Assembly: GCF_000024025.1 (NCBI RefSeq) | Contig: NC_013131.1 | Coordinates: 10,334,229-10,398,228, forward strand | Direction: 5' to 3' | DNA: 64,000 nt | From: Catenulispora acidiphila DSM 44928 | GTDB taxonomy: Bacteria; Actinomycetota; Actinomycetes; Streptomycetales; Catenulisporaceae | Shown: positions 2,717-42,901 of the stretch, piece by piece | Layout of the letters: each line of letters begins with the position of its first letter | Numbering within the stretch: position 1 is the first letter of the stretch | Position numbers and translations under genes: made by a program | Notes under the pieces: model-generated | What the model saw: the letters and a program-made list of their open reading frames with translations, nothing else | The model's database searches: none | What the model was told of the DNA's origin: nothing

Positions 2717-3661
2717 GTGAGTGGGTCGGTGTTGCTAGCGTTGCGCCCCATGGACTCGGACTTGGAGATGCAGCTCCCGCCGTTGCTGCTGTGGCTCGAT
2801 GAGCAGGGACGCGAGCGGCCCAGCGAGTACATCGACGTCTCCGCGTATGCGGGGGATGAGCCGGGTGCCATGGAGTTCGTCGGGATGCTGATCACCATCT
2901 TGGAGGACCGCGGATTCGTCGATGTGGTCCGAGGACTGGACGACCGCCCCGACTCCCTCATTACCAAGCGAGGGAAGGTGGAGGCCCAGCGGGTCCGCGA
3001 AACGCGTGGCAACCGCGTTGCGCGGATGCGGTTCGCCCGGGACGCCGTCATCCAGTGGCTGTTCGCCGAGTACCCGACCCACGCAGGGAGCCAGCAGCAG
3101 TTCCTGGGGTGGAAGGGCTCGGTCTTCCTCGGAGACATGCTGACGAACGACGAGTTCTCGGAGGCCGTGCGATATCTCAGAGGCCGGGACCTGGTCGAAG
3201 TAACAAACCTTGCGGGAACCGACGTAAGGCTGACGACGAATGGCATCGACTGCGCGACGTCTGGAGGATCGGTGAGTGACTTCTTGAACGGCCCAAAGCC
3301 GCAGTCCGCGGGTGGGCCGGTGTTCAACGCACCGATCAACGGCCCGGTTGCGGTGAACAGCAGCCAGTTCACGCAGAACGTGGTGACATCGGGCGCTGTG
3401 GACATCGAGGGCTTGCGGGCCTTCGTATCTCTCGTGCGGGATTTGACCCCGTCCCTGACGCCCCACGAGTCCGAGCAGCAGGAGCTGCTGAGCGAGGTGT
3501 CAGAGCTGGACATCGCCGCTTCCACTGCCGTTCCGGATGCCGGTCTGCTGAAGCGGCTCACCGGACGTGTGGTGACGGCGGTGAAGGGCCTGACGCACTC
3601 TCCCGGCGTTCAGAAGTTGGCGTTGGAGGCCGGCGAGAAGGTCCTGGACCACTTCAGCTGA
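2717..3661 (+). CDS. Hypothetical protein with winged-helix-like N-terminus and a NAPINGPVAV linker
   Basis: 314 residues from GTG 2717; ATG 2750 (MDSDLEMQLPPLL) is an equally good start. Residues about 15-180 are mostly helical and hold two repeats of a 'disruption/high-numbered strand' pattern like tandem winged helices (LITKRGKVEAQ and VRLTTNGIDC end each unit, as recognition wings often do). Residues about 200-225 contain FNAPINGPVAVNSSQFTQN, a low-complexity beta segment like the short linkers found in actinobacterial effector and NTPase proteins. The C-terminus is helical. Function unknown. Confidence 0.7.
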   Translation: MSGSVLLALRPMDSDLEMQLPPLLLWLDEQGRERPSEYIDVSAYAGDEPGAMEFVGMLITILEDRGFVDVVRGLDDRPDSLITKRGKVEAQRVRETRGNRVARMRFARDAVIQWLFAEYPTHAGSQQQFLGWKGSVFLGDMLTNDEFSEAVRYLRGRDLVEVTNLAGTDVRLTTNGIDCATSGGSVSDFLNGPKPQSAGGPVFNAPINGPVAVNSSQFTQNVVTSGAVDIEGLRAFVSLVRDLTPSLTPHESEQQELLSEVSELDIAASTAVPDAGLLKRLTGRVVTAVKGLTHSPGVQKLALEAGEKVLDHFS

Positions 3662-3692
3662 CCATGTCCGTGGCCTGTGTAACGATGAGACC

Positions 3693-4196
3693 GTGACGGT
3701 CGACCTGAATGACCCGGAATACACGCTCGTTCTCGCACTCGAAGGTTTCCGGCAAGCCGCTGCCCGCTACCAGGTGGCGGTAGATGCCTCGGAGGACGCG
3801 GCTGTTGTGTTCACGCCTCTTGCCGAGGCACTGATGTGGGCGATTAGCATCGACGAAACCTTCTTCAAGGTTGATGACCAGCCCTATCGGGACGCGCGTG
3901 ATGGTGACGCAGACGGCCGATACCTGCAAGCGCTGAGGTATGCGCGGAATCGCTGTACCCATCAGCTCGCGCTCGTTGCCGAGCGCAAGGGGTTGGCCCC
4001 TCCGTTTCGACCGCCGATAACGCTGGGCTTGCTCTTCCGATGGCGGCCGGTCAGCGAGCTGCCCCCACCCGACCCCAGGTTCAGAGACCCCCGCGGGGAG
4101 ACCGCGTACGACGAGTTGCTGGCGAAGAACCCCGCAGACCAGGCCATCGTCCACGCGGACGCCTGGTTCGTGCGGTGGAGCGCACAGAGGATCTAG
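3693..4196 (+). CDS. Hypothetical protein (167 aa)
   Basis: GTG start at 3693, 31 bases after the preceding stop, so probably co-transcribed with it. Alpha-helical N-terminal two thirds with the motif RYARNRCTHQLALV, reminiscent of HEPN-like or DUF4145-like helical bundles (an R-N-x3-H arrangement), then a Pro-rich region and the conserved-looking end HADAWFVRWSAQRI. The HEPN resemblance is weak and inferred only from the short motif. Confidence 0.65.
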   Translation: MTVDLNDPEYTLVLALEGFRQAAARYQVAVDASEDAAVVFTPLAEALMWAISIDETFFKVDDQPYRDARDGDADGRYLQALRYARNRCTHQLALVAERKGLAPPFRPPITLGLLFRWRPVSELPPPDPRFRDPRGETAYDELLAKNPADQAIVHADAWFVRWSAQRI

Positions 4197-4325
4197 AACA
4201 GATGACTAGCGTTGCCCCCGCAGTCAGGACGCCGACGCGCTGAATCTGCTGGACAGCTGGAGCGTGAGCCATCAAGCCCGCCACGAGGTAACGTGGCTGC
4301 GGCCTTCTGCTGGCATGCTGAAGCT

Positions 4326-30612: not shown

Positions 30613-31224
30613 TCACGGCGTGGAGGATGGTGCCGCAGTGACAGGGTCGGGTGCCAGCGTCGCGTACGGCGGCCGGGGCGTAGTGAGCAGGGCAGTCTCG
30701 ACGACGATGCGCGCGACGGATTCCTGCTGACAATCCTGCTCGCCGATGATCCGTTCCACACCTGAGGGAAGCAGGTCGTGCGGGGTGTACCAGTTGCGCA
30801 TGTCCTCCACTGACCACTCGTGGTGGTTTGGCTTGGTGTAGTGCCTGAGCACTGTCTCCTCGAACGGAACGTCCCAGAAGTAGGCGAAGCTCCGCGGGTG
30901 GTCGGCGAGTAACCTCTCCAGCATTGGCCCATAGATCCGCGCGGACAGGATGCCTTCGACGACGCACGGGATGCCAGCGGCGAGGGTGGCGCGGGCCATG
31001 ATGTCGATCAGCGTGACGGTGAATGCGCCATCCTGGTCGCGTTCGCGAAGCACGTTGCGCCGCACTTCGTCCTGACGGATGATCGCCAGCCCTCGCCCTC
31101 CGTACGACTCGCGTAGCTGGGTGGCCGTGGTGCTCTTGCCACAACCGCTCGGACCGCGTAGCACCAGGAGCGTTGTCGCCACGTTCGTCATGGATTCCGT
31201 CTTCCTATCCGTCCTGCGGTTCAC
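30613..31224 (-). CDS. P-loop kinase (AAA/zeta-toxin-like small-molecule kinase)
   Basis: 203 residues. GTG 31224 overlaps the methyltransferase stop (GTGA); ATG 31191 (MTNVATTLLVLRG) is an alternative that starts just before the P loop. LRGPSGCGKST is Walker A; IIRQDEVRRNVL carries the acidic substrate-binding residue and VVEGIL follows, as in chloramphenicol phosphotransferase or polynucleotide-kinase-like enzymes. It probably phosphorylates a small molecule or acts as a self-resistance kinase. Last gene of the long minus-strand operon. Confidence 0.75.
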   Translation of the reverse strand: MNRRTDRKTESMTNVATTLLVLRGPSGCGKSTTATQLRESYGGRGLAIIRQDEVRRNVLRERDQDGAFTVTLIDIMARATLAAGIPCVVEGILSARIYGPMLERLLADHPRSFAYFWDVPFEETVLRHYTKPNHHEWSVEDMRNWYTPHDLLPSGVERIIGEQDCQQESVARIVVETALLTTPRPPYATLAPDPVTAAPSSTP

Positions 31225-32465
31225 GCCTGGACGGCGCGGGATGCAGTGTCGGTTCCGGTGGCCGGGAAGGCGATGACAATGCGGCGGTGGACGGTGTCGA
31301 TGACGTGCCCGTCAGGAAGGTCGGAATCGGCAGTGTCGCGTGGGCAGATGGTGACGGTCATGCCTGGTCCACCCCGCACCTCGCGATCCCAGCCTTCGAT
31401 CAGCTCGACGAGTTGTTTGGCGTGTCGCTGCGCGTCGGGGCCATAAGCGATGGACCCGAGAGCGTAGTCCTCGCCGATCTTCTTGCTGGCCAGGTAGCCG
31501 AGGTTGCCGCCGGATGTCCAGGTGGGCGGGAAGCGTCTCACAGCATCGGGGATCAGCGCCTCGGTGTCGCCGCCGGTGCATCCGCCGGCCAATCGGATCG
31601 CCAGGTACATCTGAAGGTCGCCGATGTAGTACATCCCTGGGACGGTCACACCAGACCAGACCTGCACGCCGGGATGGTCCAGTGCCTGAGCGAGGGCTAC
31701 GGGGTCGTCGGGCTCGGAGTGCATGAAGTTCAGCGGCGTTGTCGAACCGGCCAGCTGCACTGCGGTCCGCCGCGACGCCAAGCCGCCGATGCCTTGGAAC
31801 GGCACGAAGCCGGAGAAGATCGAGTTGGTCGCGCGCAGTTGGTCGCCGTTGGCGACCAGGGTGAGGGTGCGGTTCTGGCCGCGGATGCTCAGCGGTACGA
31901 CTAGTCGGCCGCCCGGAGCGAGTTGGGCGGTCCAAGCCGGCGGGATGTCGTATGCCTGAGCGCAGACGATGATCGCCGCATACGGGGCGTCTACGGCCCA
32001 GCCGTTCTCGCCGTCGCCGAGCGCGACGGTGACCCGGCTGTGTCCGGTGCGCTCCAGTCCGATGGCCGCGCGGTTGGTGATGTCGGGATCGATGTCGAGG
32101 GTGACGACCCGCCCGGTGCGGCCGACGACTTCGGCCAGTAGCGCGGCCTGATACCCGCCAGAGCCGATCTCCAGCACCCGGTCCCCGGACTGGAGCGCTG
32201 CCTGTTCGATCATCAGGGCTTGCAGCCAGGGGGCGGACAACGAACTCAGGCACGTGCCGGTCTCGTCGAACTTGGTCTTCACTGTGTCGTCGGCGTAGGA
32301 GGCATCAAGGTCGACTTCAGGGGCGAACGCGTGACGGGGTACCGCGCGGAATGCCGCCTCGACAGCGGTCGTGGTGATCCGCCCGTCGGCCATGAGCTGG
32401 TCGACGAGAGTGTGTCGCAGGGTTTCGGCACGGCTGTCGAGATCGACGTCGGCGGTGGCGGTCAA
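31221..32465 (-). CDS. Protein-L-isoaspartate methyltransferase-like enzyme (RiPP-associated PIMT type)
   Basis: Start TTG 32465 with GAAGGA 8 bases upstream; GTG 32516 is possible. About 414 residues, against about 210 for housekeeping PIMT. Residues 20-210 are the PIMT core: FRAVPRHAFAP, CLSSLSAPWLQALMIE and VLEIGSGGYQAALLAEVVG (SAM motif I). The C-terminal 200 residues (GCTGGDTEALIPDAVRRFPP) form an extra domain like that of the 'methyltransferase, FxLD system' family and other RiPP-linked PIMTs. Such enzymes methylate Asp and generate aspartimide. The 46-residue peptide in the same operon is a candidate substrate. Confidence 0.75.
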   Translation of the reverse strand: MTATADVDLDSRAETLRHTLVDQLMADGRITTTAVEAAFRAVPRHAFAPEVDLDASYADDTVKTKFDETGTCLSSLSAPWLQALMIEQAALQSGDRVLEIGSGGYQAALLAEVVGRTGRVVTLDIDPDITNRAAIGLERTGHSRVTVALGDGENGWAVDAPYAAIIVCAQAYDIPPAWTAQLAPGGRLVVPLSIRGQNRTLTLVANGDQLRATNSIFSGFVPFQGIGGLASRRTAVQLAGSTTPLNFMHSEPDDPVALAQALDHPGVQVWSGVTVPGMYYIGDLQMYLAIRLAGGCTGGDTEALIPDAVRRFPPTWTSGGNLGYLASKKIGEDYALGSIAYGPDAQRHAKQLVELIEGWDREVRGGPGMTVTICPRDTADSDLPDGHVIDTVHRRIVIAFPATGTDTASRAVQA

Positions 32466-32561
32466 GGGCGGCGTCCTTCGCGAAGGTGGCAGGGCGGAAG
32501 GGACTCTAGCGGCCACCTCCGACAGGATGTGATCGAGCGATAACTCAGAGCTCCAACGCCG

Positions 32562-33431
32562 TCATGGTGTTGAACCTGTCACCGCCGCTTCGAGCATTGC
32601 CTGCGCGGCTCGGGACGCCGGGGCGAACAGCGGCTCGCTGTCGTCGGCCCAGGCGAGTAGTTCGGCGCACTTGAAGAGGCGCATGGTGCGACCAGTGGCC
32701 GATTCCAGGTCGGGCCGCCGGTGCGCGAGAACCTTCTCGGCGAGGCCGGGAACGGCCAAGGAGCCGAACCACAGGTGCGCCGCGTCCAAACCCCGGGGTG
32801 CGCGGCCCCAATCCTCCCAGTCCAGGATCCACAGCTCCGGGCCGGTCATGTTGGCCCAGTTCAGGTCGGCGTGGGCGGTCGTCCACTCCTCGATCGGCGC
32901 CTGGGCATCTGGAAAGACCTTGGCGATCGCGGCGTGGACTCTCTCGATGCTGATCGGCTCCAGGTCGGGGGTGGCGAGCCTGGTCGTGGGCGCGTCGGCG
33001 AGGGCGTCCATCGCGGTGTCGAACTCGGTCCACCAGCTGTCCGGCAGCGTGTTAGCGGCGGCGGAGCGGCCGATCGGCGGCTGGTCGATCAGCTCGGTCT
33101 CGTCGGCACGCCACATGACCTGGTTGTCCGGGTCGTGCCAGGAGATGCCGGCGTGCCAGGCGGGGATCGGGACGCCAGCGAGTACGGTGGCGGCCTCCAG
33201 CCCCCAGCCCTGGCCGTCGAGCCGCTCCAGCCCGCGGCACTCGATGCGCACCCAAGTGTCCCGATCGGTGCGGAAGCCCAGTGAGCGGCGCTTGGCCACG
33301 GCCTGCGCCCGGTGCAGCCGGGTCGTCAGCGCCGACTCGACGCGGTCGACGACATGCTCGATGTCGACGCGCCGAAGGTCGAGCCGCTGGGCGGCCGGTA
33401 GCTGGGGCTCGGTGGTGCCGGTGGGGGTCAT
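32562..33431 (-). CDS. Aminoglycoside-phosphotransferase-family kinase
   Basis: 289 residues, ATG 33431 overlapping the aldo/keto reductase stop, with GGAG upstream. TTAHADLNWANM (catalytic Brenner motif, His-x-Asp...Asn) and LWILDWEDWG (metal-binding Asp) are intact; the N-terminal lobe is short. The family phosphorylates small hydroxylated molecules, including antibiotics and pathway intermediates. Either a biosynthetic tailoring kinase or self-resistance. Confidence 0.8.
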   Translation of the reverse strand: MTPTGTTEPQLPAAQRLDLRRVDIEHVVDRVESALTTRLHRAQAVAKRRSLGFRTDRDTWVRIECRGLERLDGQGWGLEAATVLAGVPIPAWHAGISWHDPDNQVMWRADETELIDQPPIGRSAAANTLPDSWWTEFDTAMDALADAPTTRLATPDLEPISIERVHAAIAKVFPDAQAPIEEWTTAHADLNWANMTGPELWILDWEDWGRAPRGLDAAHLWFGSLAVPGLAEKVLAHRRPDLESATGRTMRLFKCAELLAWADDSEPLFAPASRAAQAMLEAAVTGSTP

Positions 33432-34252
33432 TTCGCTCCTTCGCTGCTGGAGGCAACGCTAGCCCGCTCGCGTATCAGGGTGCGGTATCGCGCGATCGCG
33501 TCGGGGTTCACGTCGAGACGAGCCGCGGCGGCCAGCTCGACCAGGTGCGCCGGGTCGCCGGTGCCGGCCGTGACCGCCTGGACCGCGGGCAGGTTGAAAG
33601 CCGCGGCGACAGCGGCCTGGATCCGATTGGCCTGCTGCCCGGCGGCCAGGAACAGCCTGGTGTCGACCTGCTCCCAGGCTGGGTCGTCGCTGTGACCCCC
33701 CAGCGGGGCCATGCCGCGCAGCTCCACTGGCTGGATCTGGTCTGCGAGCTGTTCGGCCGCGTCCAGGACGCGGGCTGGGACCATCAGGCCGGAGCGGATC
33801 ATGAGCACGTCCGGAGGTACGGGGACGATCCGGCCGAGCAGCGGTGTCGGGTCCCAGGTTGACAGCCCCCAGGCGTGACACAGCCCTTCGTCGCGCAGCC
33901 GGGTCATGGTGTGGCAGGCGTTGGTGAACCACGTCGGGCTGCGCTCGGGGTTGTGCAGCAGCAGCGTGTCCGGCGCCCGGCCCAGCTCGGATCGGATGGC
34001 TTCGGCGGCGGTGCGCAGCCGGGAGGCAGACAGGTCGTGGCCGCCGGGGAAGAACCCGATCTTCGTGGTGATGTCGAAGCGGCTCAGCAGGTCCCCGGCA
34101 GCGTCGGCGAGCTGCCGGTGGGCGGTGTACCCGTGGTAGTTGAGCGCGGTGTCCAGAGCAGTGATGCCGTGGTCCAGGGCGGCGGTCAGAACGTCTCGGT
34201 CGGCACGAGTCCGGTATAGCCCGAGGATGAGACGTCGGTCAGCGGCGCGCAT
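33428..34252 (-). CDS. Aldo/keto reductase 1
   Basis: 274 residues, ATG 34252 with AGGAGG 4-5 bases upstream. It begins 67 bases inside the JmjC gene; the paralogue at 40357-41199 starts at the equivalent residue, so the overlap is real. Catalytic tetrad regions are present: LDTALNYHG (Asp, Tyr), ITTKIGFFPG (Lys) and LLLHNPE (His). NADPH-dependent reduction of an aldehyde or ketone is expected. Paralogue of aldo/keto reductase 2 (shared GLYRT start and GHDLS motif). Confidence 0.85.
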   Translation of the reverse strand: MRAADRRLILGLYRTRADRDVLTAALDHGITALDTALNYHGYTAHRQLADAAGDLLSRFDITTKIGFFPGGHDLSASRLRTAAEAIRSELGRAPDTLLLHNPERSPTWFTNACHTMTRLRDEGLCHAWGLSTWDPTPLLGRIVPVPPDVLMIRSGLMVPARVLDAAEQLADQIQPVELRGMAPLGGHSDDPAWEQVDTRLFLAAGQQANRIQAAVAAAFNLPAVQAVTAGTGDPAHLVELAAAARLDVNPDAIARYRTLIRERASVASSSEGAK

Positions 34253-35373
34253 AGGCCCTCCTGGATGAAGCGTTCGGCCAGAGCGATCGCGCCCGGGTCG
34301 GTGGTGTCGTCGAAGCGGATGGGGTTGCCGGACAGCAGGGTTCTGGCCCAGCCCTCGGCGCGAGGTGACAAGGTGAGCTTCTTGCCGGCCGCGCGGACCT
34401 CAAGGTTGGCTTCGCGGGCGATGATGGTCGGGGCGTACTCGGTCACCGTCACCGCCCCGCCCAGCGGCCCGAAGGCCGGCACGTGGGGGATGTGGCGGGC
34501 GGCCGGCGTCGCCTCGCGCATCTGTTGCAGGTAGCGCTGCGGGTTCACGTCGACGGCCAGGTCCAGCAGCTTGGTAGTCAGCAGCTTGGCGTCCGCGCCT
34601 GCCGGGTTCTCCAGGTCGGTGCGGAACAGCTCGACGTCGCGGGCGGCGTCGGCCAGGTGCTGGACCCAGGTGACGCCGGTACGGCGGGTGATACCGAAGG
34701 TCAAATGCAGGGAGATGCCCTCGCCGGAGCCGACGCGGGTGGCGGCGTGCCAGAATCCGCGCGGGATGTGCATGACGTCGCCGGTGTTCATGGTTCCGGA
34801 CCACAGCAGCTCTTCGGGAGCCTCCAGGTTCTGCTCGGCGTCGCGGTACATCGGCACTGGCCGGGAGGCCGGGCGCACCTCCCAGGACTTCTGTCCGGCG
34901 ACCTGGACGACGAGTACGTCATGGTCGTCCCAGTGGGTGGAGAACCCGGCGGTGTCGCCGACGGCGAGGTAGGCGTTGACCGAGACCAGCTCTCCGGTCC
35001 ACCAGCCCAGAGCGCGGCAGGCGACTTCCAGGGTGGGGTCGAACTGGTTGATGGTGTCCAGGATCAGGGTGCCGCCCTCGTTGAGAATCCGGCCGACGGC
35101 GGCCATGTCGGCGCGCCGTGATGCCTGGTGGCGGCGGGAGACGAAGTTGGTCAGGAACGCCGCGGGGTGCAGGACGGCGCCGTCCTGGTACATCCGCAGC
35201 TGCGGGTTGGCCAGGTGGCGGCGCATGACCAGTTCCAGCAGGTGGTTGGGGGTGAGCAGTCGGGTCAGCAGGTCCTGGTCGTCGATGTGGCCGCGGGCCA
35301 CCTCGGTGCCAAGGGCCGCCGGCCCGTCCCATCCCAGGGCCTTCTCCAAGTTGGAAACGAGCCGGTGGTCCAT
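34186..35373 (-). CDS. JmjC/cupin Fe(II)/2-oxoglutarate oxygenase (YcfD/ROX-like)
   Basis: 395 residues, ATG 35373 with AGGAAGGA upstream. Residues about 95-230 are the JmjC fold: FSTHWDDHDVLVVQVAGQK has the His-x-Asp iron ligands, and GDVMHIPRGFWHAA holds the distal His. The family hydroxylates protein side chains (ribosomal oxygenases) and, in RiPP clusters, precursor peptides. It lies 34 bases after the small peptide gene, which fits peptide modification. Confidence 0.8.
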   Translation of the reverse strand: MDHRLVSNLEKALGWDGPAALGTEVARGHIDDQDLLTRLLTPNHLLELVMRRHLANPQLRMYQDGAVLHPAAFLTNFVSRRHQASRRADMAAVGRILNEGGTLILDTINQFDPTLEVACRALGWWTGELVSVNAYLAVGDTAGFSTHWDDHDVLVVQVAGQKSWEVRPASRPVPMYRDAEQNLEAPEELLWSGTMNTGDVMHIPRGFWHAATRVGSGEGISLHLTFGITRRTGVTWVQHLADAARDVELFRTDLENPAGADAKLLTTKLLDLAVDVNPQRYLQQMREATPAARHIPHVPAFGPLGGAVTVTEYAPTIIAREANLEVRAAGKKLTLSPRAEGWARTLLSGNPIRFDDTTDPGAIALAERFIQEGLCAPLTDVSSSGYTGLVPTETF

Positions 35374-35407
35374 GGTCTTTCAGTCCTTCCTACAGGGTTG
35401 CTTCAGG

Positions 35408-35548
35408 TCACACGGAGCTGTCGCGGTTCTCGCCGTCGTCGCCGGCGCTGGTCCCGGTCGGGTCGCTGCGCTCGGCCTCGTGGCGGTTGTGCGCGGCACC
35501 GAGCTGTTCGACGGCCAGCACGAGGTCGTCGGTGGATGCCTCGGGCAT
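35408..35548 (-). CDS. Candidate precursor peptide (46 aa)
   Basis: ATG 35548 preceded by AAGGAGG 5 bases upstream, the best SD box in the operon; stop at 35408, 34 bases before the JmjC gene. Sequence begins MPEASTDDLVLAVEQLGAA (acidic, helical, leader-like) and ends SAGDDGENRDSSV. No Cys; the tail has Asp-Gly and Asp-Ser pairs, the dipeptides at which PIMT enzymes form aspartimide, plus Asp/Asn/Arg sites open to hydroxylation. It could instead be a small regulatory or carrier protein. No known RiPP precursor family recognised. Confidence 0.6.
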   Translation of the reverse strand: MPEASTDDLVLAVEQLGAAHNRHEAERSDPTGTSAGDDGENRDSSV

Positions 35549-35695: not shown

Positions 35696-36268
35696 CTAGG
35701 TCAGCTTGAGCAGGCTCACCAGTGGGACGCCCTGCTCGGCCAGCAGCTCGCGCCCACCGTGGCGGACATCTTCGATCAGGCAGGCTGCTGCGACCGGAAC
35801 CGCGCCGGCCGCGCGCAGAGCCTCGGCCAGGCTGGCCAGGGTCCGGCCGGTGGTGATCTCGTCGTCGACGAGCAGGATCTGCGCGCCGGCTTCGATGGCG
35901 TAGGCGTACATGTCCGGACGGCTGCTGTGCGGTTCGGTGAAGTGGATCGCGTCGGGCAGCTCCAACTGAAGCTTCCAGGCGATCTTGAAGGGGATGCCGG
36001 AGGTCTGGGCGAGGGCCAGGGCCGGGACGATGCCGCCGGCGTCCAGGCCGAGTAGATAGTCCGGAGCCGTGCCGCTCTGGTCGAGCTGTTCGCGGCAGGT
36101 GCGCCACAGGTGCAGCGCCACGTCGGCGAGGTCGGTGACGTCGACCGGTTCGCACAGCCCATCCAGGGCGTGAACGATGCGGTCGGGGCGTGCGGTCCCG
36201 TCGGGTCCCAGCCGGGCGACCTTCAGGGCCCCTATCAGGGCCGTCGAGTCGGTGGTCAGCCTCATCAC
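35696..36268 (-). CDS. Phosphoribosyltransferase (orotate PRTase-like)
   Basis: 190 residues; GTG 36268 or ATG 36265 overlapping the previous stop. ILLVDDEITTGRTLASL is the PRPP-binding motif of type I phosphoribosyltransferases (two acidic residues then the TTG loop). LLGLDAGGIVPALALA is the upstream glycine-rich loop. Too far from PyrE in the rest to be the pyrimidine enzyme. It probably attaches or removes ribose-5-phosphate on a cluster substrate. Confidence 0.8.
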   Translation of the reverse strand: MMRLTTDSTALIGALKVARLGPDGTARPDRIVHALDGLCEPVDVTDLADVALHLWRTCREQLDQSGTAPDYLLGLDAGGIVPALALAQTSGIPFKIAWKLQLELPDAIHFTEPHSSRPDMYAYAIEAGAQILLVDDEITTGRTLASLAEALRAAGAVPVAAACLIEDVRHGGRELLAEQGVPLVSLLKLT

Positions 36269-36540
36269 AGCTCCCTGAGTCGACGGGCGATGCCGCGCAC
36301 CGTGTGCCGGTAGCGGTGGGAGGCGGTCGTGGCGGCCGGTATGTGTGGCCGGACTAGGCGGGCGGCTTCGCGCAGGTGGTTGGCCGCGGTGTCCAGTTCG
36401 GGGATGTCGTTGTCGTTGAGGCGGGTCAAGACGTCGGCGATGTCGCAGGCGATGTCGGCGGCCTGAGCGATCGGCGAGGTCTGGATGCGCTGCGGCCGGC
36501 GGCGCAGTGCGGCGCTGGCATCGTTCATGGCGAAGCTCAT
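36265..36540 (-). CDS. Small helical protein (91 aa)
   Basis: ATG 36540 overlaps the GNAT stop (ATGA) and its own stop overlaps the phosphoribosyltransferase start, so all three are translationally coupled. Entirely alpha-helical (IACDIADVLTRLNDNDIPEL), basic C-terminus RGIARRLREL. No family recognised; possibly a partner protein of the neighbouring enzymes. Confidence 0.65.
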   Translation of the reverse strand: MSFAMNDASAALRRRPQRIQTSPIAQAADIACDIADVLTRLNDNDIPELDTAANHLREAARLVRPHIPAATTASHRYRHTVRGIARRLREL

Positions 36541-37451
36541 CCCAGCTCCCGGCTGGTCAGGCCGTACAGCAGGGTCACGTCGACGGCGGTCTCGTCGCCG
36601 CAGGCGCCGGGGCGGACCATGCGCAGGGTCTCGCTGTCGTGGGACAGGCCGCGGGTCTCGCACAGCGCCATCGCCGCCGGGTTCGGCTCGGGGATGTCGA
36701 TGGCGATCGCCCGCGCGCCGTGCCGTCCGGCGTGTTCGGCCAGGGCGTCGAACAGCGCGGCGGCGACCCGCGGCTCGCTGGCGTACAGCGGGCCGATGCG
36801 GGCTGCGCCGAAGCCGGCCCGGATGACGCCGTATCCGAGCAGCCGGTTGTTCTGCACGAAGCCCAGGGCGTACCGGTCGGGCCCGATCGCCCAGTCGGCG
36901 GCCAGGGCGGTCCGCTCGGCGGGGAAACAGCGCGCGTCCAGCGCGGCGGCCTGGCCGAGCAGCCCGCTGTCTAGTGTCGTCACGTGCGGGTTGATCGCCC
37001 GGGGTGCCGGGACGGCTCCGGCGAAGGCGATGGTGCGCCTGCGGGCGAAAAAGCCGCGGGCGGCGAAGAAGTCGCGCAGCGTCGGTGGGGCCTCCAGGCC
37101 GACGGGCCGACCTTCGGCGTGGGACAAGACGATATCGGCGGTGGCCGTTCCGATGCCCCTGCCCCGGAACCCGGGGTCGACGATCAGGGCGCCGGTGAAG
37201 CAGAACCCGTTGTCGTATCCGGCGGTGGCCATCGCCGAGACCGGGCGGCCGTCCAGCACGCCGATCAGAAGGCCGCCGGGGCGGTGCCGGGTGAACAGGT
37301 CCAGGTCACCGCGCCCCAGACTCCAGCCGGCCCCGCCAGCCCAGCCCTCGATCAAGGCGGCGTCGGCAGCGGTTCCCCGAGTCGCGACGAATCGGCCGGC
37401 CCACGGTTCGGCCGTTGGCGCGTCGGCGTGTGGAGTCTGGAGCGCGGTCAT
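36537..37451 (-). CDS. Tandem GNAT acetyltransferase
   Basis: 304 residues, ATG 37451 with CAGGAGAA upstream. First GNAT domain (residues about 30-145) has VDPGFRGRGIGTATADIVL, the acetyl-CoA pyrophosphate loop (R/Q-x-x-G-x-G). The second (about 165-290) resembles the YitH-type GNAT-like domain (RIGPLYASEP, HGARAIAIDIPEPNPAAM). Probable N-acetylation of a pathway amine or toxin. Confidence 0.8.
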   Translation of the reverse strand: MTALQTPHADAPTAEPWAGRFVATRGTAADAALIEGWAGGAGWSLGRGDLDLFTRHRPGGLLIGVLDGRPVSAMATAGYDNGFCFTGALIVDPGFRGRGIGTATADIVLSHAEGRPVGLEAPPTLRDFFAARGFFARRRTIAFAGAVPAPRAINPHVTTLDSGLLGQAAALDARCFPAERTALAADWAIGPDRYALGFVQNNRLLGYGVIRAGFGAARIGPLYASEPRVAAALFDALAEHAGRHGARAIAIDIPEPNPAAMALCETRGLSHDSETLRMVRPGACGDETAVDVTLLYGLTSRELG

Positions 37452-37487: not shown

Positions 37488-38099
37488 CTACGCGCCGAGA
37501 CTGGCCGGACGGCGCAGCATCGGGAACATGGGCGGTCCAGCGGGCAGTTGGATGGGGTCGCCAAGGTCGGCGTAGCCGTGCTTCAGATACAGCTGCCGGG
37601 TGGTGGCGTCGCTTGCTTCCAGATATGCCGCGGACGGGGCATCGGACTGGTCCAGGCGGCGGTGATGGGCAGCCAGCAGTTCGGTGCCGATACCTTGCCC
37701 CTGCTGGTCCGGGTGGACGGCCAGGATCGCCAGATGGTCGTGGCGCAGCCCGGTGGGGTGGTGCTTGTTCAGCAGGGCGTCGAAGGTACGGAAGCGGTCC
37801 ACCCAGCGCTCGGTCACCGCCGCCAACTCTTGGTCGTAGTCCGCGCCCGGCACCTCGCCTTCCTCGCTGACGGGCAGCCACAGCGCGACCGCCGACCGTT
37901 CGGTGGTGGTGTAGACGTGGCCGCGCCGCATAGCCTCGGCGACGTACAGGCGGAAGTAGCCGGGAAAGACACGGCGGCGATCGTTCTCGCCGGGGATCAG
38001 CCAGAGTGACGGGGCGAGTCCGAGGAACGCTTCGGCGATCACCAGGCTCAGCGTGTCGGTGTCCTGCGGCTGCGCCAGGACGATGTCGCGCGGGCTCAC
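37488..38099 (-). CDS. GNAT N-acetyltransferase
   Basis: Start GTG 38099 overlapping the permease stop (GTGA); 203 residues, discarding an antisense N-terminal extension to 38402. LAILAVHPDQQGQGIGTELL holds the acetyl-CoA loop QGQGIG, and AAYLEASDATTRQLYLKHGY is the C-terminal GNAT signature. Similar to self-resistance acetyltransferases found beside exporters in actinomycete clusters. Confidence 0.8.
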   Translation of the reverse strand: MSPRDIVLAQPQDTDTLSLVIAEAFLGLAPSLWLIPGENDRRRVFPGYFRLYVAEAMRRGHVYTTTERSAVALWLPVSEEGEVPGADYDQELAAVTERWVDRFRTFDALLNKHHPTGLRHDHLAILAVHPDQQGQGIGTELLAAHHRRLDQSDAPSAAYLEASDATTRQLYLKHGYADLGDPIQLPAGPPMFPMLRRPASLGA

Positions 38100-39610
38100 C
38101 GGGCGGCCCGCCCGGCACGAGCCGGCTTCGCGGCTGCGGACGGGGTGGAGCTGGCAGCGGTGCGGGCCAGCGCGGCGGCTCCGCCCAGGCCGATCATCTC
38201 GTAGGCGTCCGGCTGCCGACGCCTGAGGACCAGCGCCCAGCCGATCCCGATCACGGCGGCAACGGCGAACAGTCCGGGAAGGACCCTGGTGGCCAGCGAG
38301 CCGGGAGGCACGTTGAGCAGCACGTCGTAGTGGTCGACGCACAGCCAGGCCATCACCGTCAGCAGCACGGTCGACGCGACGGGGGCGATCAGGCGTCGCC
38401 ACACGGTCTCATCGCCCGGTGTTCTGGCGAAGTACTTCACGACCGCGGCCGAGGTGGCAGCCAACAGGAGCAGGATACCGAAACCGCCGGTGGTGCCGCC
38501 CCAGAAGAACAGCTTCGCGACCGGATCCCAGTGCAGTCCCAGCGTCAGCCCGATCGCCACCGCACCGAACAGGCTCTGCACTCCCGAGGCTGCCTTCGGG
38601 ACGCCGTTGCTCCCGGTCGTTCCCATGATCGCCGGCAGCACCCGCTCCCGGCCCAGAGCCCACATGTACCGGCCGACCGCGTTGTGGAATGCCAACGCCG
38701 CCGCGATCAGGCTCGTCAGGAACAGTGTGCGGGCGGTACTTGCCAGCAGGCCCGGGGCCATGGCGAACAGCATCGTCGGACTCGCGGGGCCTTGAGCGGT
38801 CGCTACCACCTGGTTCCCGTAGTGCACGTCCAACGCCCAGGACGCACCGGCGTAGACCACCGCGATCACCGCCAGGGACACGAACGTGGCCAGCGGGATC
38901 GTGCGCTTGGCGTCGCGGGCTTCCTCGCTGAACACTGGGGCCTGCTCGAAACCGGTGAACCCGAGCACGGCGACTGCCAGAACCGCGCCGAGCCCGGCGA
39001 AATGCAGACTGGTCGGAGACAGCGCAGCCGCGCTGATTCCCCCGGCCGCCGGATGCGCCAGACCCCGCACCGTCAGCGCGATGATGACCAGCAGCTCGAT
39101 CGTCGACAGCACGCCGAGCAGATGACCGGACAGGTCCACGCGGATCAGGCCCAGCACGGTCACCACCGCCCAGGCGCCGAACGCCCAGACCCCCCAGGGC
39201 GCATTCAGGCCGAAGTTGTCGGCGGCAAACGACTGCAACGACGGCCCGATCATCCCGTAGAGCCCGACCTGTAGGACGTTGTACGCCACCACAGCGACCA
39301 GCGCGCCGCCGACGCCAGCCGGTTTGGACAGGCCCTGGGAGATGAAGGCGTAGAACGCGCCGGCGTTCGGGATGCGCTGGGCCATCGCGACATACCCGAC
39401 GGCGAAGACGGCCAGGACCACCGCGACCACCAGAAACGCGGCAGGGACGCTGGTCAGCCCGGTGACGGCGTAGGCGGTGGGCACGACTCCGGCGGTCACG
39501 GTCAGCGGCGCGACCCCGGCCAGGATGAAGAACATGACGCCGGTGACGCCGAGCCGGTCGCGGGCCAGCGTTTCTGAGACCTTGCTAGGAGCCGGTGATC
39601 GTCTGGGCAC
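38096..39610 (-). CDS. APC-family amino acid/polyamine permease
   Basis: 504 residues, GTG 39610 with GAGGAG 6 bases upstream. About twelve membrane helices. The first is FFILAGVAPLTVTAGVVPTA, with the flexible Gly-containing unwound segment typical of the APC superfamily; IPNAGAFYAFISQGLSKPAG is a consensus APC motif. May import the amino-acid precursor or export the product. Coupled to the GNAT gene. Confidence 0.85.
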   Translation of the reverse strand: MPRRSPAPSKVSETLARDRLGVTGVMFFILAGVAPLTVTAGVVPTAYAVTGLTSVPAAFLVVAVVLAVFAVGYVAMAQRIPNAGAFYAFISQGLSKPAGVGGALVAVVAYNVLQVGLYGMIGPSLQSFAADNFGLNAPWGVWAFGAWAVVTVLGLIRVDLSGHLLGVLSTIELLVIIALTVRGLAHPAAGGISAAALSPTSLHFAGLGAVLAVAVLGFTGFEQAPVFSEEARDAKRTIPLATFVSLAVIAVVYAGASWALDVHYGNQVVATAQGPASPTMLFAMAPGLLASTARTLFLTSLIAAALAFHNAVGRYMWALGRERVLPAIMGTTGSNGVPKAASGVQSLFGAVAIGLTLGLHWDPVAKLFFWGGTTGGFGILLLLAATSAAVVKYFARTPGDETVWRRLIAPVASTVLLTVMAWLCVDHYDVLLNVPPGSLATRVLPGLFAVAAVIGIGWALVLRRRQPDAYEMIGLGGAAALARTAASSTPSAAAKPARAGRAAR

Positions 39611-39662
39611 GGAAATCTCCTCGGGAAATCGCGACGGTGGGTGGGCGGAGCGCGAAAAGGGT

Positions 39663-40322
39663 TCAGCCGATGCGTTGGCTAGTGACGGCACTGCCGACAG
39701 CGGCCTCGGTGTGTGCCAGCAGCTGCCGCAGAGGAGGGCTGTAGTCCAGAGGCTCCAGCGTTTCTTCCAGGGCCGCGGGGTCGTCCAGTCGGTTCTGTAC
39801 CTCCCACAGGGAGGGGTGTCTGAGCCCGGTGGCACGAGTCAGTCCGAACAACACGAGGTGGTGAGTGTCGGCGTTGGCGTTGTAGACCTTGATCTTCACG
39901 TCGATCGCCGGCCAGTCAGCAGTGGTGGAGTCCACTGGTCTCCACCGGTCCGCCACGCCCAGAAACTTCAGGCGAGAGGGTCTGCGGTGGAGGAGCTGCT
40001 CGGCGGCCATCCTGGCGATGACACGTTCGATTGCCTTGGCTGCGAGGTAGTTGAGCCAGTCCCTCACCAGAAGACGTTGGTGTTCGTCGGCTATCTCGCG
40101 ATGGATCTCATCGGCGAGCGAGGACGTCGGCGGCTTCCAGCCGGTAACGGCCGTCACCTCGTCGCCCTCGACGGCGATGGCGCCGACGACGGCCAGTTCG
40201 CAGAGCAGGGCGCTGGCCAGACCGAGGCCAAGTATCCGGTCCGGAAGTCGCGGGTGTCCGGACAGATCGTCGTGGACCATGAGGAAGAAGTCGTCGGCCA
40301 GGAGCCCGGTTCGGGTCAGCAT
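39663..40322 (-). CDS. GPP34 (GOLPH3/VPS74-like) family protein
   Basis: 219 residues, ATG 40322. ADDFFLMVHDD at the N-terminus and LPDRILGLGLASALLCELAV correspond to the conserved GPP34 start. In eukaryotes the family binds phosphatidylinositol-4-phosphate. Bacterial members are common in actinomycetes but of unknown role, and often sit near biosynthetic or membrane-protein genes. It could tether cluster enzymes to the membrane. Confidence 0.8.
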   Translation of the reverse strand: MLTRTGLLADDFFLMVHDDLSGHPRLPDRILGLGLASALLCELAVVGAIAVEGDEVTAVTGWKPPTSSLADEIHREIADEHQRLLVRDWLNYLAAKAIERVIARMAAEQLLHRRPSRLKFLGVADRWRPVDSTTADWPAIDVKIKVYNANADTHHLVLFGLTRATGLRHPSLWEVQNRLDDPAALEETLEPLDYSPPLRQLLAHTEAAVGSAVTSQRIG

Positions 40323-40356: not shown

Positions 40357-41199
40357 TCATAATGGCTGCTCCCCTGCGTGCGCAGCCCCGGACGCGGTGG
40401 CGCCGCCAGCGGCAGTTAGCGCTGCGCTGTAGCGGGCAACGGTGTCGCTGTCGGTCGCGAGACAACGTGCGGCATGAAGCTGCGCGAGGTGATCGGCGCG
40501 GTGCGTGCCGACTGCAATTCGGGAGACATGCGGTAGCTCGAAAGCAGCGGCGAATGCGGCTTCAAGTCGGCCTACATGACCGCTCGTCGAGACGATCTTC
40601 GCCGGATCGATGTCGGACCACAGCCGAGCAGCGGCGTCCTGCCCGAATGGCGCCATGCCCCACCGGTCAGCAGCCGCTGTCATCTTGAAAAGCTCTTCGC
40701 CGGCTTCATGGACCAACAGAGGCACTGCGAGGCCGGCGCGAACCATCAGGACGTCTGGCGCCGGTCCTTCATAGCTGATGCTGTTGAGTGGTCGCGGATC
40801 CCAACTTGCGATGCCCCACGAACCGCACCAACCTTTGTCACAGAGCTCTGACAGAAGCGCGCAGGCTGGCAGTAGCCCGTTGGGTGACTGCTCTGGATTG
40901 TGCAGCAGGACAGCATCCGGAGTTCGATCAAGCTCTTCCGTTGATCGCTCAATGGCCTGACGCAGCCGAACGGGCGATAGGTCGTGTCCGTCCGGGAAGT
41001 ATCCGACCTTCGTCGAGATCTCGAAACGATGGAGCAAGTCGTCTGCGATGGCGTTCAGTGCCCTGTGCGACGTGAACTGATCGTAGCTGTAGGCGGTATC
41101 GATGGCTGTGACGCCGATTTCGAGAGCAGACTCCAGCAGCTCGCGGCTGAGGCCGGTCCGGTAGAGCCCCAGCGCGACTCTGCGGTCGTCGTATCGCAC
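40357..41199 (-). CDS. Aldo/keto reductase 2
   Basis: 280 residues, GTG 41199 with GGGAGGA 4 bases upstream. Tetrad regions: IDTAYSYDQ (Asp, Tyr), ISTKVGYFPDGHDLS (Lys) and VLLHNPEQSPNG (His). Paralogue of aldo/keto reductase 1 (same GLYRTG start, same GHDLS and HNPE motifs), so a duplication inside the cluster. First gene of the long minus-strand operon; a 10-bp-period operator lies 125-155 bases upstream. Confidence 0.85.
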   Translation of the reverse strand: MRYDDRRVALGLYRTGLSRELLESALEIGVTAIDTAYSYDQFTSHRALNAIADDLLHRFEISTKVGYFPDGHDLSPVRLRQAIERSTEELDRTPDAVLLHNPEQSPNGLLPACALLSELCDKGWCGSWGIASWDPRPLNSISYEGPAPDVLMVRAGLAVPLLVHEAGEELFKMTAAADRWGMAPFGQDAAARLWSDIDPAKIVSTSGHVGRLEAAFAAAFELPHVSRIAVGTHRADHLAQLHAARCLATDSDTVARYSAALTAAGGATASGAAHAGEQPL

Positions 41200-41362: not shown

Positions 41363-42037
41363 CTAGATGGCGTGTAGGTGTCCGCGAAGTTCGCGCAGGT
41401 CGTTCAGGACCACGGTGGCGCCGGCGGCATGAAGCAGTTCGGCGGAGTGGACCCCAGAGGCGACCGCAATGACCTGGGCGCCGGCTGTGAGCGCAGCTTC
41501 GACATCGCGAGGAGTGTCTCCGACGACGATCGTTGAGGCTCGATCGGCCCATGGGTAAGCCCTGCCGATACGTTCGCGCGCCATGACAACGAGGTCGGCC
41601 CGCCGGTCGGAATCAGCTCCGTAGGCACCGACGGCCAGGTCCAGATAGCGGTCGAGGCCGAACGGCCGAAGCTTCACGAGGGCGTTCGCGGCGATGTTTC
41701 CGGTCAGCACCGAGGAAACGATGGCGGGGTCCTCATAGGCTTCTTTTAGCACCGAACGGACCCCAGGTAGGACGCGCCCCCGCGCTTTGAGTTCTTGTTC
41801 GTGGCACGTTCCAGCTTGCTCCAATGCAGCCTCGGCCAGGTCCCAAGCGGGGACTGGGAGGTGGTGATCGGCGAACATATCGCTGATGATCAGGCGGTCA
41901 GTTCGACCGTCGGTACGGGCTGGATGCGCAGGCGGGTGACCCGCGAGGGCTTTGAACGCCGACGCGTAGATCTCCTTGCTGACCCCAGCGTTGTCGATGA
42001 GCGTGTGGTCAATGTCCCACAGCACGATAAGCGGCAC
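41363..42037 (-). CDS. HAD-superfamily hydrolase
   Basis: 224 residues from GTG 42037 (MPLIVLWDIDHTLIDNAG), the first plausible start before the catalytic motif; the ORF extension to 42262 is antisense to the HTH gene. WDIDHTL is motif I (DxDxT), SSVLTGN motif II and VVGDTPRDVEAAL motif III/IV. Phosphoglycolate-phosphatase-like. May dephosphorylate products of the cluster kinases. Divergent from the HTH-DUF5919 gene. Confidence 0.8.
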   Translation of the reverse strand: MPLIVLWDIDHTLIDNAGVSKEIYASAFKALAGHPPAHPARTDGRTDRLIISDMFADHHLPVPAWDLAEAALEQAGTCHEQELKARGRVLPGVRSVLKEAYEDPAIVSSVLTGNIAANALVKLRPFGLDRYLDLAVGAYGADSDRRADLVVMARERIGRAYPWADRASTIVVGDTPRDVEAALTAGAQVIAVASGVHSAELLHAAGATVVLNDLRELRGHLHAI

Positions 42038-42090
42038 CGGCCAAGAGTAGGCACAGCCATCGGCGGGCGGTGACCAGGACACGTAAAGAA

Positions 42091-42104
42091 GTATCTTGCG
42101 ATAC
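42091..42104. promoter_or_regulatory. Palindrome between the HAD and HTH-DUF5919 genes
   Basis: GTATC-TTGC-GATAC, a perfect 5-bp inverted repeat in the divergent promoter region, 27 bases before the HTH gene start. Fits an autoregulatory operator. Confidence 0.4.
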
Positions 42105-42130
42105 CGCGCGAGCTGCGATTGTATGGCTGC

Positions 42131-42901
42131 GTGAATGAGCGACTGCGCTCCGCGCTCGTCCGCACGGGGGTCACCACGGGCGAGTTGGCGGCTGCATGCG
42201 GCGTAGATCCCAAGACCGTCGACCGATGGATCAACACCGGACGTCGCCCTCACGCACGCCACCGGTTCACCGCCGCACAGTGTCTCGGTATTGACGAGGT
42301 GGAGTTGTGGCCGATCGAGCGTCGCGACGACTCGACCCTTCCCTCAGCGGGCTCTGAGCTGGCCAGCATCTACGCAAACCGCGCGAGCGTTCCTCGCCAA
42401 CTGTGGCTCGACCTCCTGGAGGGTGCGGCAAAGCACATCGACGTACTCGTATTCAGCGGAACCTTCTACGCGCAGAGCAACCCTCACGTCGCTCGCATGC
42501 TCCTCGCACGCGCACAGGCTGGCACCAGTGTCCGGTTGTGCTTCGGGGACCCCGCAGGCGAATCGGTCGCTATCCGAGGCCGAGAAGAAGGTATCGGTGA
42601 TACGTTGGCCGCGAAGATCCGAGCTTCGCTTACTTACTACCGTGAGCTTCTGTCGGTACCTGGCTGCGAAGTGCGCCTGCATGACACAACACTGTATGCG
42701 TCGCTGTTCCGGTATGACGATGAGCTACTAGTCAACCCGCATATCTTCGGCCAGCCGGCCAGCGCTAATCCGCTGTTGCATTTGCGACGAAGCGACGGCG
42801 GCGAATGGTTCGAGCTTTACGCTGCAAGTTTCGATACGGTTTGGAACGGCGCCCGGCCGTGGGCTCCAGGCGAGGAAGGCCACCGACGTGGGCAGGACTG
42901 A
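42131..42901 (+). CDS. HTH-DUF5919 regulator-like protein
   Basis: 256 residues from GTG 42131. N-terminal XRE-type HTH (TTGELAAACGVDPKTVDRWI), then the DUF5919 region with a PLD-like fold (HIDVLVFSGTFYAQSNPHVA; RLCFGDPAGESVAIRGREEG). Domain pairs like this are common next to NUDIX genes in streptomycetes, as here. No clear HKD site, so it probably senses a ligand rather than hydrolysing it. Candidate local regulator. Confidence 0.75.
   Translation: MNERLRSALVRTGVTTGELAAACGVDPKTVDRWINTGRRPHARHRFTAAQCLGIDEVELWPIERRDDSTLPSAGSELASIYANRASVPRQLWLDLLEGAAKHIDVLVFSGTFYAQSNPHVARMLLARAQAGTSVRLCFGDPAGESVAIRGREEGIGDTLAAKIRASLTYYRELLSVPGCEVRLHDTTLYASLFRYDDELLVNPHIFGQPASANPLLHLRRSDGGEWFELYAASFDTVWNGARPWAPGEEGHRRGQD

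Follow-up and report, generated by a model that had tools for sequence, protein, structure and literature searches.

The window analysed here, a stretch of 64,000 nucleotides from Catenulispora acidiphila DSM 44928 (NC_013131.1, positions 10,334,229 to 10,398,228), carries on its minus strand a gene for a 46-residue peptide (35408..35548), followed by genes for a JmjC oxygenase (34186..35373), an aldo/keto reductase (33428..34252) and a small APH-type kinase (32562..33431). Judged from the sequences of related loci, this four-gene cassette is recurrent in many soil actinobacteria, and it probably encodes the pathway of a ribosomally synthesised and post-translationally modified peptide (RiPP) of an uncharacterised class, the chemistry of which is proposed here from the genes. 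An earlier note on this DNA had suggested a RiPP in which the peptide is served by the JmjC protein and by a homologue of protein isoaspartate methyltransferase (PIMT) encoded further downstream, and had passed over the two genes lying between these enzymes, the reductase and the kinase. It is this pair, and not the PIMT, that comparison of the loci indicates to be the conserved partners of the peptide and the JmjC protein.

A peptide gene kept ahead of a JmjC oxygenase

The peptide, MPEASTDDLVLAVEQLGAAHNRHEAERSDPTGTSAGDDGENRDSSV, is encoded with AAGGAGG five bases ahead of its ATG and a GC content at third codon positions of 0.93; it matches no family in Pfam or NCBIfam at an E value of 0.1. 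It is one of eight open reading frames (ORFs) in the window that encode 35-70 aa and have an ATG or GTG start behind GGAGG. The earlier note had described just such a short gene with a strong Shine-Dalgarno box, a tail holding D-G and D-S, and a JmjC gene beginning 34 bases past the peptide stop codon, and the sequence agrees with it in each respect.

Related loci were taken from a scan of contigs of one genome per species; the best 80 of 559 JmjC relatives, with flanks of 5 kb or less, make up the named loci, which come mostly from Streptomyces but also from Streptacidiphilus, Wenjunlia, Nocardiopsis, Acrocarpospora, Amycolatopsis, Kibdelosporangium, Actinokineospora and Actinophytocola. In every one of the 80, the JmjC gene has a member of this peptide family ahead of it; 79 of the peptides were found by script and one, in L155, by eye, as it has GD for SD and failed the script's S-D rule. 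Locus L020 is cut and gave no peptide by script; that of the same genome is visible in L110. The distance from peptide stop to JmjC gene is 7-97 bases (79 loci). Conservation of the ORF upstream of JmjC homologues, which the earlier note had proposed looking for, is hence general among these loci, and the recurring pair supports its suggestion that a RiPP-like precursor is coupled to a putative JmjC protein hydroxylase.

The same association is evident in 391 genomes of the order, of which 79 have a JmjC match at E ≤1e-30 and 42 a strong one (best E around 1e-54 or below). A peptide profile (A5) built from 21 peptides, partly of these same genomes, has matches in 45 of the 391; its own members were thus bound to be recovered, whereas the absence of matches elsewhere was not built in. 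Forty-one of the 45 are strong-JmjC genomes, with peptide and JmjC gene within 250 bases of one another in every case. The sole strong-JmjC genome lacking the peptide is G389, whose JmjC relative (L048) has no match to the reductase or the kinase in its surroundings either. The four peptide-positive genomes without a strong JmjC comprise two with JmjC remnants (G054 and G185), one with a degenerate peptide and no JmjC (G277), and G128, the match in which was rejected as a chance one within a long ORF.

An alignment of 70 distinct peptides, from which the L155 variant was left out, has six invariant positions (in window numbering L9, R22, S28, D29, D37 and D38); V13, L16 and G36 are kept in 69 peptides and G39, hence the D-G motif, in 68. 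Of these positions, L9, V13, L16 and R22 are assigned to the putative leader, and S28-D29 and G36-D37-D38-G39 to the core. The N-terminus is freely variable and the Gly/Asp/Ser-rich tail is well kept, in two main forms: one SAGDDGENRD-like, which is that of the window, and one SSGDxPWPGGDGN-like. Peptides from Amycolatopsis, Kibdelosporangium and Actinophytocola, as well as that from Actinokineospora (L155), have a third form. No Cys occurs in the window peptide or in any of the 70. Pooled Nei-Gojobori pN/pS is 0.53 for 28 sequences of the first tail form and 0.49 for 47 of the second, values that are crude and descriptive, as all pairs are used, these are non-independent, and GC-biased codons lower pS. 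The lack of conservation or of purifying selection that the earlier note had named as counting against the gene is therefore not what these loci display, and on this comparative evidence the 46-codon ORF is a real gene. A translated leader, acting as an attenuator or coupling ORF whose amino acid sequence is irrelevant, would suit the close spacing to the JmjC gene in the 79 loci and the strong Shine-Dalgarno box of the window copy; however, six invariant residues in 70 sequences, pN/pS of about 0.5 and the lack of a run of one codon type leave this explanation scarcely credible.

A JmjC relative in G340 (L045) has no reductase or kinase match nearby, and is accompanied by a peptide with the usual leader and a different tail; the peptide of a plasmid relative (L279) has, unlike the others, a single Cys.

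The JmjC enzyme, its partners and the proposed pathway

The JmjC protein (PF08007, E 3.6e-20) has the architecture of the ribosomal oxygenases (ROX). Its iron-binding HxD...H residues, H147, D149 and H209, are invariant in 37 sequences, and a profile of the family searched against the PDB finds NO66 (E 1.2e-14), MINA53, YxbC and YcfD. An AlphaFold2 model made from the window sequence and 36 relatives (pLDDT 89.4, pTM 0.89) aligns with NO66 chain VIA at Z 23.5 (359 aligned, rmsd 6.7) and with YcfD at Z around 18-19. The likeness to NO66, MINA53 and YcfD thus takes in the JmjC fold, the helical domain and a C-terminal winged helix, the NO66 alignment spanning residues 1-380; in contrast, sequence identity is 14-20%, and in place of a ribosomal protein target the window enzyme has a peptide as its fixed genomic partner.

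Predicted alone (pLDDT 79.4), the C-terminal 103 residues have their best structural matches in MINA53 (Z 8.3) and NO66 (up to Z 6.8), which is no more than would be expected from homology. They also align with chains bearing a RiPP recognition element (RRE), namely MccB (Z 6.7, 76 aligned, rmsd 3.5), the PbtF RRE (6.3), microcin B17 synthetase (5.7) and TbiB1 (5.7); a published study (PMC12710340) has noted JmjC domains of PF08007 that are joined to RRE-like folds. In its modelled form, the enzyme resembles protein hydroxylases acting on ribosomal proteins, with a C-terminal domain that bears a middling resemblance to an RRE.

The reductase (PF00248) is present in 79 of the 80 named loci, being missing from L155, as is the kinase, which is missing from L156. 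The reductase gene starts inside the JmjC gene, with a 67-base overlap in the window; with starts picked by script, the overlap in the 78 loci measured is 67 bases in 50, 91 in 14, 79 in seven, 61 in four and another length in three, and so few recurring lengths imply that the overlap itself is kept. Reductase residues D34, Y39, K64 and H100, the aldo/keto reductase tetrad, are invariant in 18 sequences. In 28 kinase sequences H187, D189, N194 and D204-W205-E206 are invariant, so that the HxDxxxxN and DxE (here DWE) motifs of the APH kinase family are kept; PF01636 matches 18 of these 28 but not the window copy, and a profile of the family had no match in the PDB. Few other families accompany the cassette: across 20 wide loci of 15-19 kb each, in which genes were delimited with a rough ORF caller, those present in at least three were a regulator (seven loci), XRE-like by the look of its sequence, a permease (three) and fragments of cassette genes.

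A second type of precursor accompanies more distant JmjC relatives, around 27-37% identical to that of the window. The peptide ends in SDGGGTGRSDGND, or nearly so, in 34 of 41 such loci; the reductase is present in 30 of the 41 and the kinase in 38. Sixteen aligned peptides of this type share L15, R26, S33, D34, G39, D42, N44 and D45, and in hhalign the profiles of the two types match across 36 columns (E 5e-6, probability 86); hence two tails seem to be combined with a common leader plan and a common S-D start.

The pathway we propose would begin with the C-terminal domain of the JmjC protein holding the leader helix through L9, V13, L16 and R22, after which the Fe(II)/2-oxoglutarate centre would hydroxylate one of the invariant core residues, the likeliest being an Asp in the G-D...D-G segment. 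As the D-G motif is kept in loci that have no PIMT, it is most likely conserved for the sake of the JmjC protein or a later enzyme, making Asp the first-choice site. Asn is the main alternative target, aligning at position 41 in 36 of the 70 peptides and being invariant in the second type. The leader Arg would be a third option by likeness to YcfD, the PDB entries of which refer in their titles to Arg hydroxylation. The kinase might phosphorylate a hydroxyl, either that of the invariant Ser28 or one newly made, and the reductase could perform a further redox change; the leader would be removed by a protease from outside the cassette.

Several considerations weigh against this interpretation. 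The cassette is known here from its gene sequences, and its core spans few residues and hardly varies within groups, whereas many RiPP cores are diversified. MINA53 and NO66, neither of them a RiPP enzyme, have the winged helix too, and RRE matches with Z of 5-7 are middling. Of the kinase genes in 79 loci, 11 are on the same strand as the cassette and 68 on the opposite one, so the kinase could be a resistance or salvage gene rather than a peptide kinase. A conserved protease or exporter was not found, there being no further family in eight or more of the 20 wide loci as delimited by the rough ORF caller. Finally, seven of the 41 second-type loci have no peptide by the pattern used, although two of these (L084 and L100), with JmjC proteins of 28% identity and neither reductase nor kinase, may be non-members.

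Some features would suit a peptide that is neither matured nor exported, and is instead a small partner or regulator of the JmjC protein, such as an activator or pseudo-substrate: the one is hardly ever seen apart from the other, the search for a conserved protease or exporter found none, and the core is nearly fixed within groups. However, the tail is kept whilst the N-terminus varies, as expected of a leader and a modified core, and the window has accessory genes common to lanthipeptide clusters, making such a role unlikely. A further possibility is that the core is a scaffold, carrying a small molecule that is built on it and then released, as in pearlins. The strongly conserved C-terminus of the second type suggests one fixed product, and kinases and reductases are typical of small-molecule enzymes. 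PEARL enzymes are relatives of LanB, though, and the window has no LanB-type PF04738 match; we regard the scaffold as distinctly unlikely. A RiPP pathway in which the JmjC protein acts on the peptide is the probable explanation.

In several genomes the cassette seems to be decaying. JmjC copies with an in-frame stop, split into two or reduced to remnants lie beside the peptide in L002 and L033 (both G013), L044 (G049), L109 (G302) and L224-L225; in L226 the peptide stands without even a remnant. Another genome (G174, L064) has the second-type JmjC gene twice, at C1:22207-22914 and C1:8478096-8478803, each around 22 kb from an end of the 8.5-Mb contig, and these equal distances suggest that the copies are probably within the terminal inverted repeats of a linear chromosome.

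The PIMT and a lanthipeptide-type accessory set

The PIMT gene (31221..32516) follows the kinase gene after 45 bases and in the same direction. Its product matches TIGR04364 ('methyltransferase, FxLD system') with 395 bits against a cut-off of 320 over residues 30-417; the span of this match marks it as the extended form that the earlier note had recognised, with a C-terminal extension. Nevertheless, it is a local addition outside the conserved cassette. No FxLD-type PIMT was found in any of the 80 related loci with three PIMT queries, and the window PIMT has no match across the 20 wide loci; its best other match in the 391 genomes is 44% identical. The genome of C. acidiphila itself has three FxLD PIMTs above the cut-off (532, 449 and 395 bits), of which the window copy is the most diverged. 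The earlier note's view of the PIMT as a defining partner of the peptide is therefore not supported, nor is the idea that the D-G tail betrays a PIMT at work, the motif being present in 68 of the 70 peptides without one.

The model of that note corresponds to a RiPP of the imiditide or pamtide type, in which the PIMT reaction on the peptide D-G is the main one and the JmjC protein is secondary. The resemblance lies in a short Asp-Gly precursor near an extended PIMT with no other known class-defining enzyme; the PIMT gene is moreover co-directional with the cassette, and D38-G39 is kept. However, imiditides and type I pamtides are two-gene systems (PMC10787088, PMC13001092), and the 80 relatives of the window cassette carry no FxLD PIMT. 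The relatives of the window PIMT belong instead to lanthipeptide clusters, and the window peptide, with no Lys, four Gly and two Pro in 46 residues, also speaks against this model, which appears highly improbable. In this strain the PIMT may still act on the peptide, without defining the class: as part of an accessory set, it might convert D38-G39 to aspartimide or isoaspartate in addition to the changes made by the cassette enzymes.

Two further candidates for a PIMT partnered with the cassette were rejected. In Nocardiopsis metallicus (L134), two PIMT genes (444-1643 and 3093-4268) adjoin the JmjC cassette; these match best the graspetide-type TIGR04188, with 275 and 326 bits against a cut-off of 380. 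In G020, a PIMT around 6 kb from a second-type cassette is graspetide-like (213 bits), with other ORFs intervening that we take to be an IS transposase pair.

A likely source of the window PIMT is indicated by the genes upstream of the peptide, which include a GPP34-domain protein (39663..40322; PF05719, E 1.3e-35), an amino-acid-permease-type transporter (38096..39835; PF00324) and a GNAT acetyltransferase (GNAT b, 37488..38402), all on the minus strand. The order GPP34, permease, GNAT and, further on, PIMT recurs in the congeners G009 (L266) and G008 (L267), at 62, 84, 70 and 41% identity respectively, and in G004 (L268), of another genus of the family, at 26, 47, 39 and 41%. L266 encodes both a lantibiotic dehydratase (PF04738, E 6e-193) and a peptide that matches the precursor family TIGR04363, and L267, which was outside the scan that revealed these, has the same layout; in L268 a LanC-like protein is encoded along with a dehydratase C-terminal domain (TIGR03891). 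The window thus shares GPP34, permease, GNAT and PIMT with FxLD class I lanthipeptides that employ a PIMT (lanthimiditides), but differs from them in having no match to LanB or to the FxLD precursor (TIGR04363) and in the absence of Cys from its peptide. Matches to both families lie elsewhere in the genome, where an FxLD precursor, LanB and the top-scoring PIMT are found near 4.47 Mb. The earlier note's statement that no lanthionine synthetase or cyclase is present holds as regards the dehydratase, with no PF04738 match in the window and the six listed for the genome all more than 5 Mb away; for LanC it is limited by the lack of a genome-wide search.

The simplest reading of these sequences is that the window is a chimera, with a lanthipeptide-type accessory set surrounding another peptide cassette, and the replacement may have gone in either direction. 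Such an arrangement would show that RiPP accessory modules are exchanged between unrelated cores. It might go further and be a functional pathway, extending the one proposed above, in which the JmjC cassette has replaced LanB, LanC and the FxLD precursor and the PIMT is a true secondary tailoring enzyme. The shared gene order in L266, L267 and L268 fits this, as do the LanB and FxLD precursor of L266 and the LanB-type and LanC-like proteins of L268; in addition, GNAT, permease and GPP34 genes stand beside second-type JmjC cassettes in G005 and G006 (L049 and L050), the permeases being 73-77% identical to that of the window. However, the adjacency of PIMT and first-type cassette is seen in one genome only, and the PIMT, as the most diverged of three, may be a leftover, so that a working chimera is possible but doubtful. 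As a conjecture that is rather less likely than not, JmjC-reductase-kinase cassettes could be envisaged as an undescribed RiPP class with at least two homologous precursor families (an L...R leader, an S-D core start and a G/S-D...N tail), found in many actinobacterial genera and on plasmids, in which the primary enzyme is a ROX-type JmjC protein with a recognition domain of its own; the window would then be a hybrid with captured FxLD lanthipeptide accessory genes, including the PIMT, and its core would be both hydroxylated and aspartimidylated.

Known systems, neighbouring genes and plasmid copies

A role for JmjC proteins in RiPP tailoring is already known: BipG is a JmjC oxygenase that acts on a precursor peptide, hydroxylating ornithine in biphenomycin biosynthesis (PMC12707348). 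What would be new here is the enzyme set of the probable RiPP pathway. Biphenomycin involves an MNIO, an arginase, a radical SAM enzyme and an FRF core, in contrast to the reductase, kinase and Gly/Asp/Ser core of the window cassette, and the likeness is one of enzyme type and kind of substrate. None of the MNIO, arginase or radical SAM families was found among the genes scanned between 30613 and 42262 (the second reductase described below being left out), nor does the peptide contain FRF. A PF01636 kinase beside the precursor is likewise a feature of the class V lanthipeptides of the spr type, where the phosphotransferase SprPT is assigned to dehydration and cyclisation of the lanthipeptide (PMC7794033). 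Unlike these, the window peptide has no Cys, and no HopA1-type gene was identified in the window, the related loci not having been scanned for one. The open-access literature yielded no published description of the cassette, most subscription journals being outside the search, and six core strings of the peptide were absent from the open-access papers searched. Xia et al. in 2025 are said, by the title of their work, to have described macrocyclisation in RiPPs catalysed by an alpha-ketoglutarate dioxygenase, and an overlap with the present family is possible.

Should the proposed pathway be correct, ROX-type hydroxylases, known mainly for ribosomal proteins, would also have founded a class of peptide natural products, and the winged helix of the JmjC protein would connect ribosomal oxygenases with the leader-binding domains of RiPP enzymes in a way that can be put to the test.

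The remaining genes around the cassette are also on the minus strand, where the order is HAD-type hydrolase, second reductase, GPP34, permease, GNAT b, GNAT a, phosphoribosyltransferase-like gene, peptide, JmjC, reductase, kinase, PIMT and an AAA_33 P-loop kinase-like gene. The last of these (30613..31224; PF13671) overlaps the PIMT gene by four bases. The second aldo/keto reductase (40357..41199) is of the same family as the first, to which it is 43% identical over its length. The HAD-type hydrolase (41363..42262; PF13419) appears to be an occasional partner, as a homologue (54-61% identity) is found on the same strand upstream of the JmjC gene in eight of the 80 loci. GNAT a lies at 36537..37451. 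Immediately ahead of the peptide gene stand a small ORF (36265-36541) and the phosphoribosyltransferase-like gene (35696..36268; PF00156), neither of which has a homologue in the 20 wide loci. A defence role was considered for the region and dropped, since PADLOC reported only a weak match of the PIMT to mad2 and weak phosphoribosyltransferase matches.

The cassette is also present on four actinobacterial plasmids (L279, L280, L281 and L282, the last being the linear pSV2 of Streptomyces violaceoruber), one of which is typed as mobilizable; hence it is probably mobile. In these four records the JmjC protein is annotated as a 'cupin domain-containing protein' and the kinase as a 'hypothetical protein' or 'phosphotransferase'. 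The peptide is a 'hypothetical protein' in L279 and L282, and in L280 and L281 it is unlisted though present in the DNA, the gene table declaring itself incomplete. With precursor genes this short, and annotated as hypothetical or not listed at all, the class is easy to miss.

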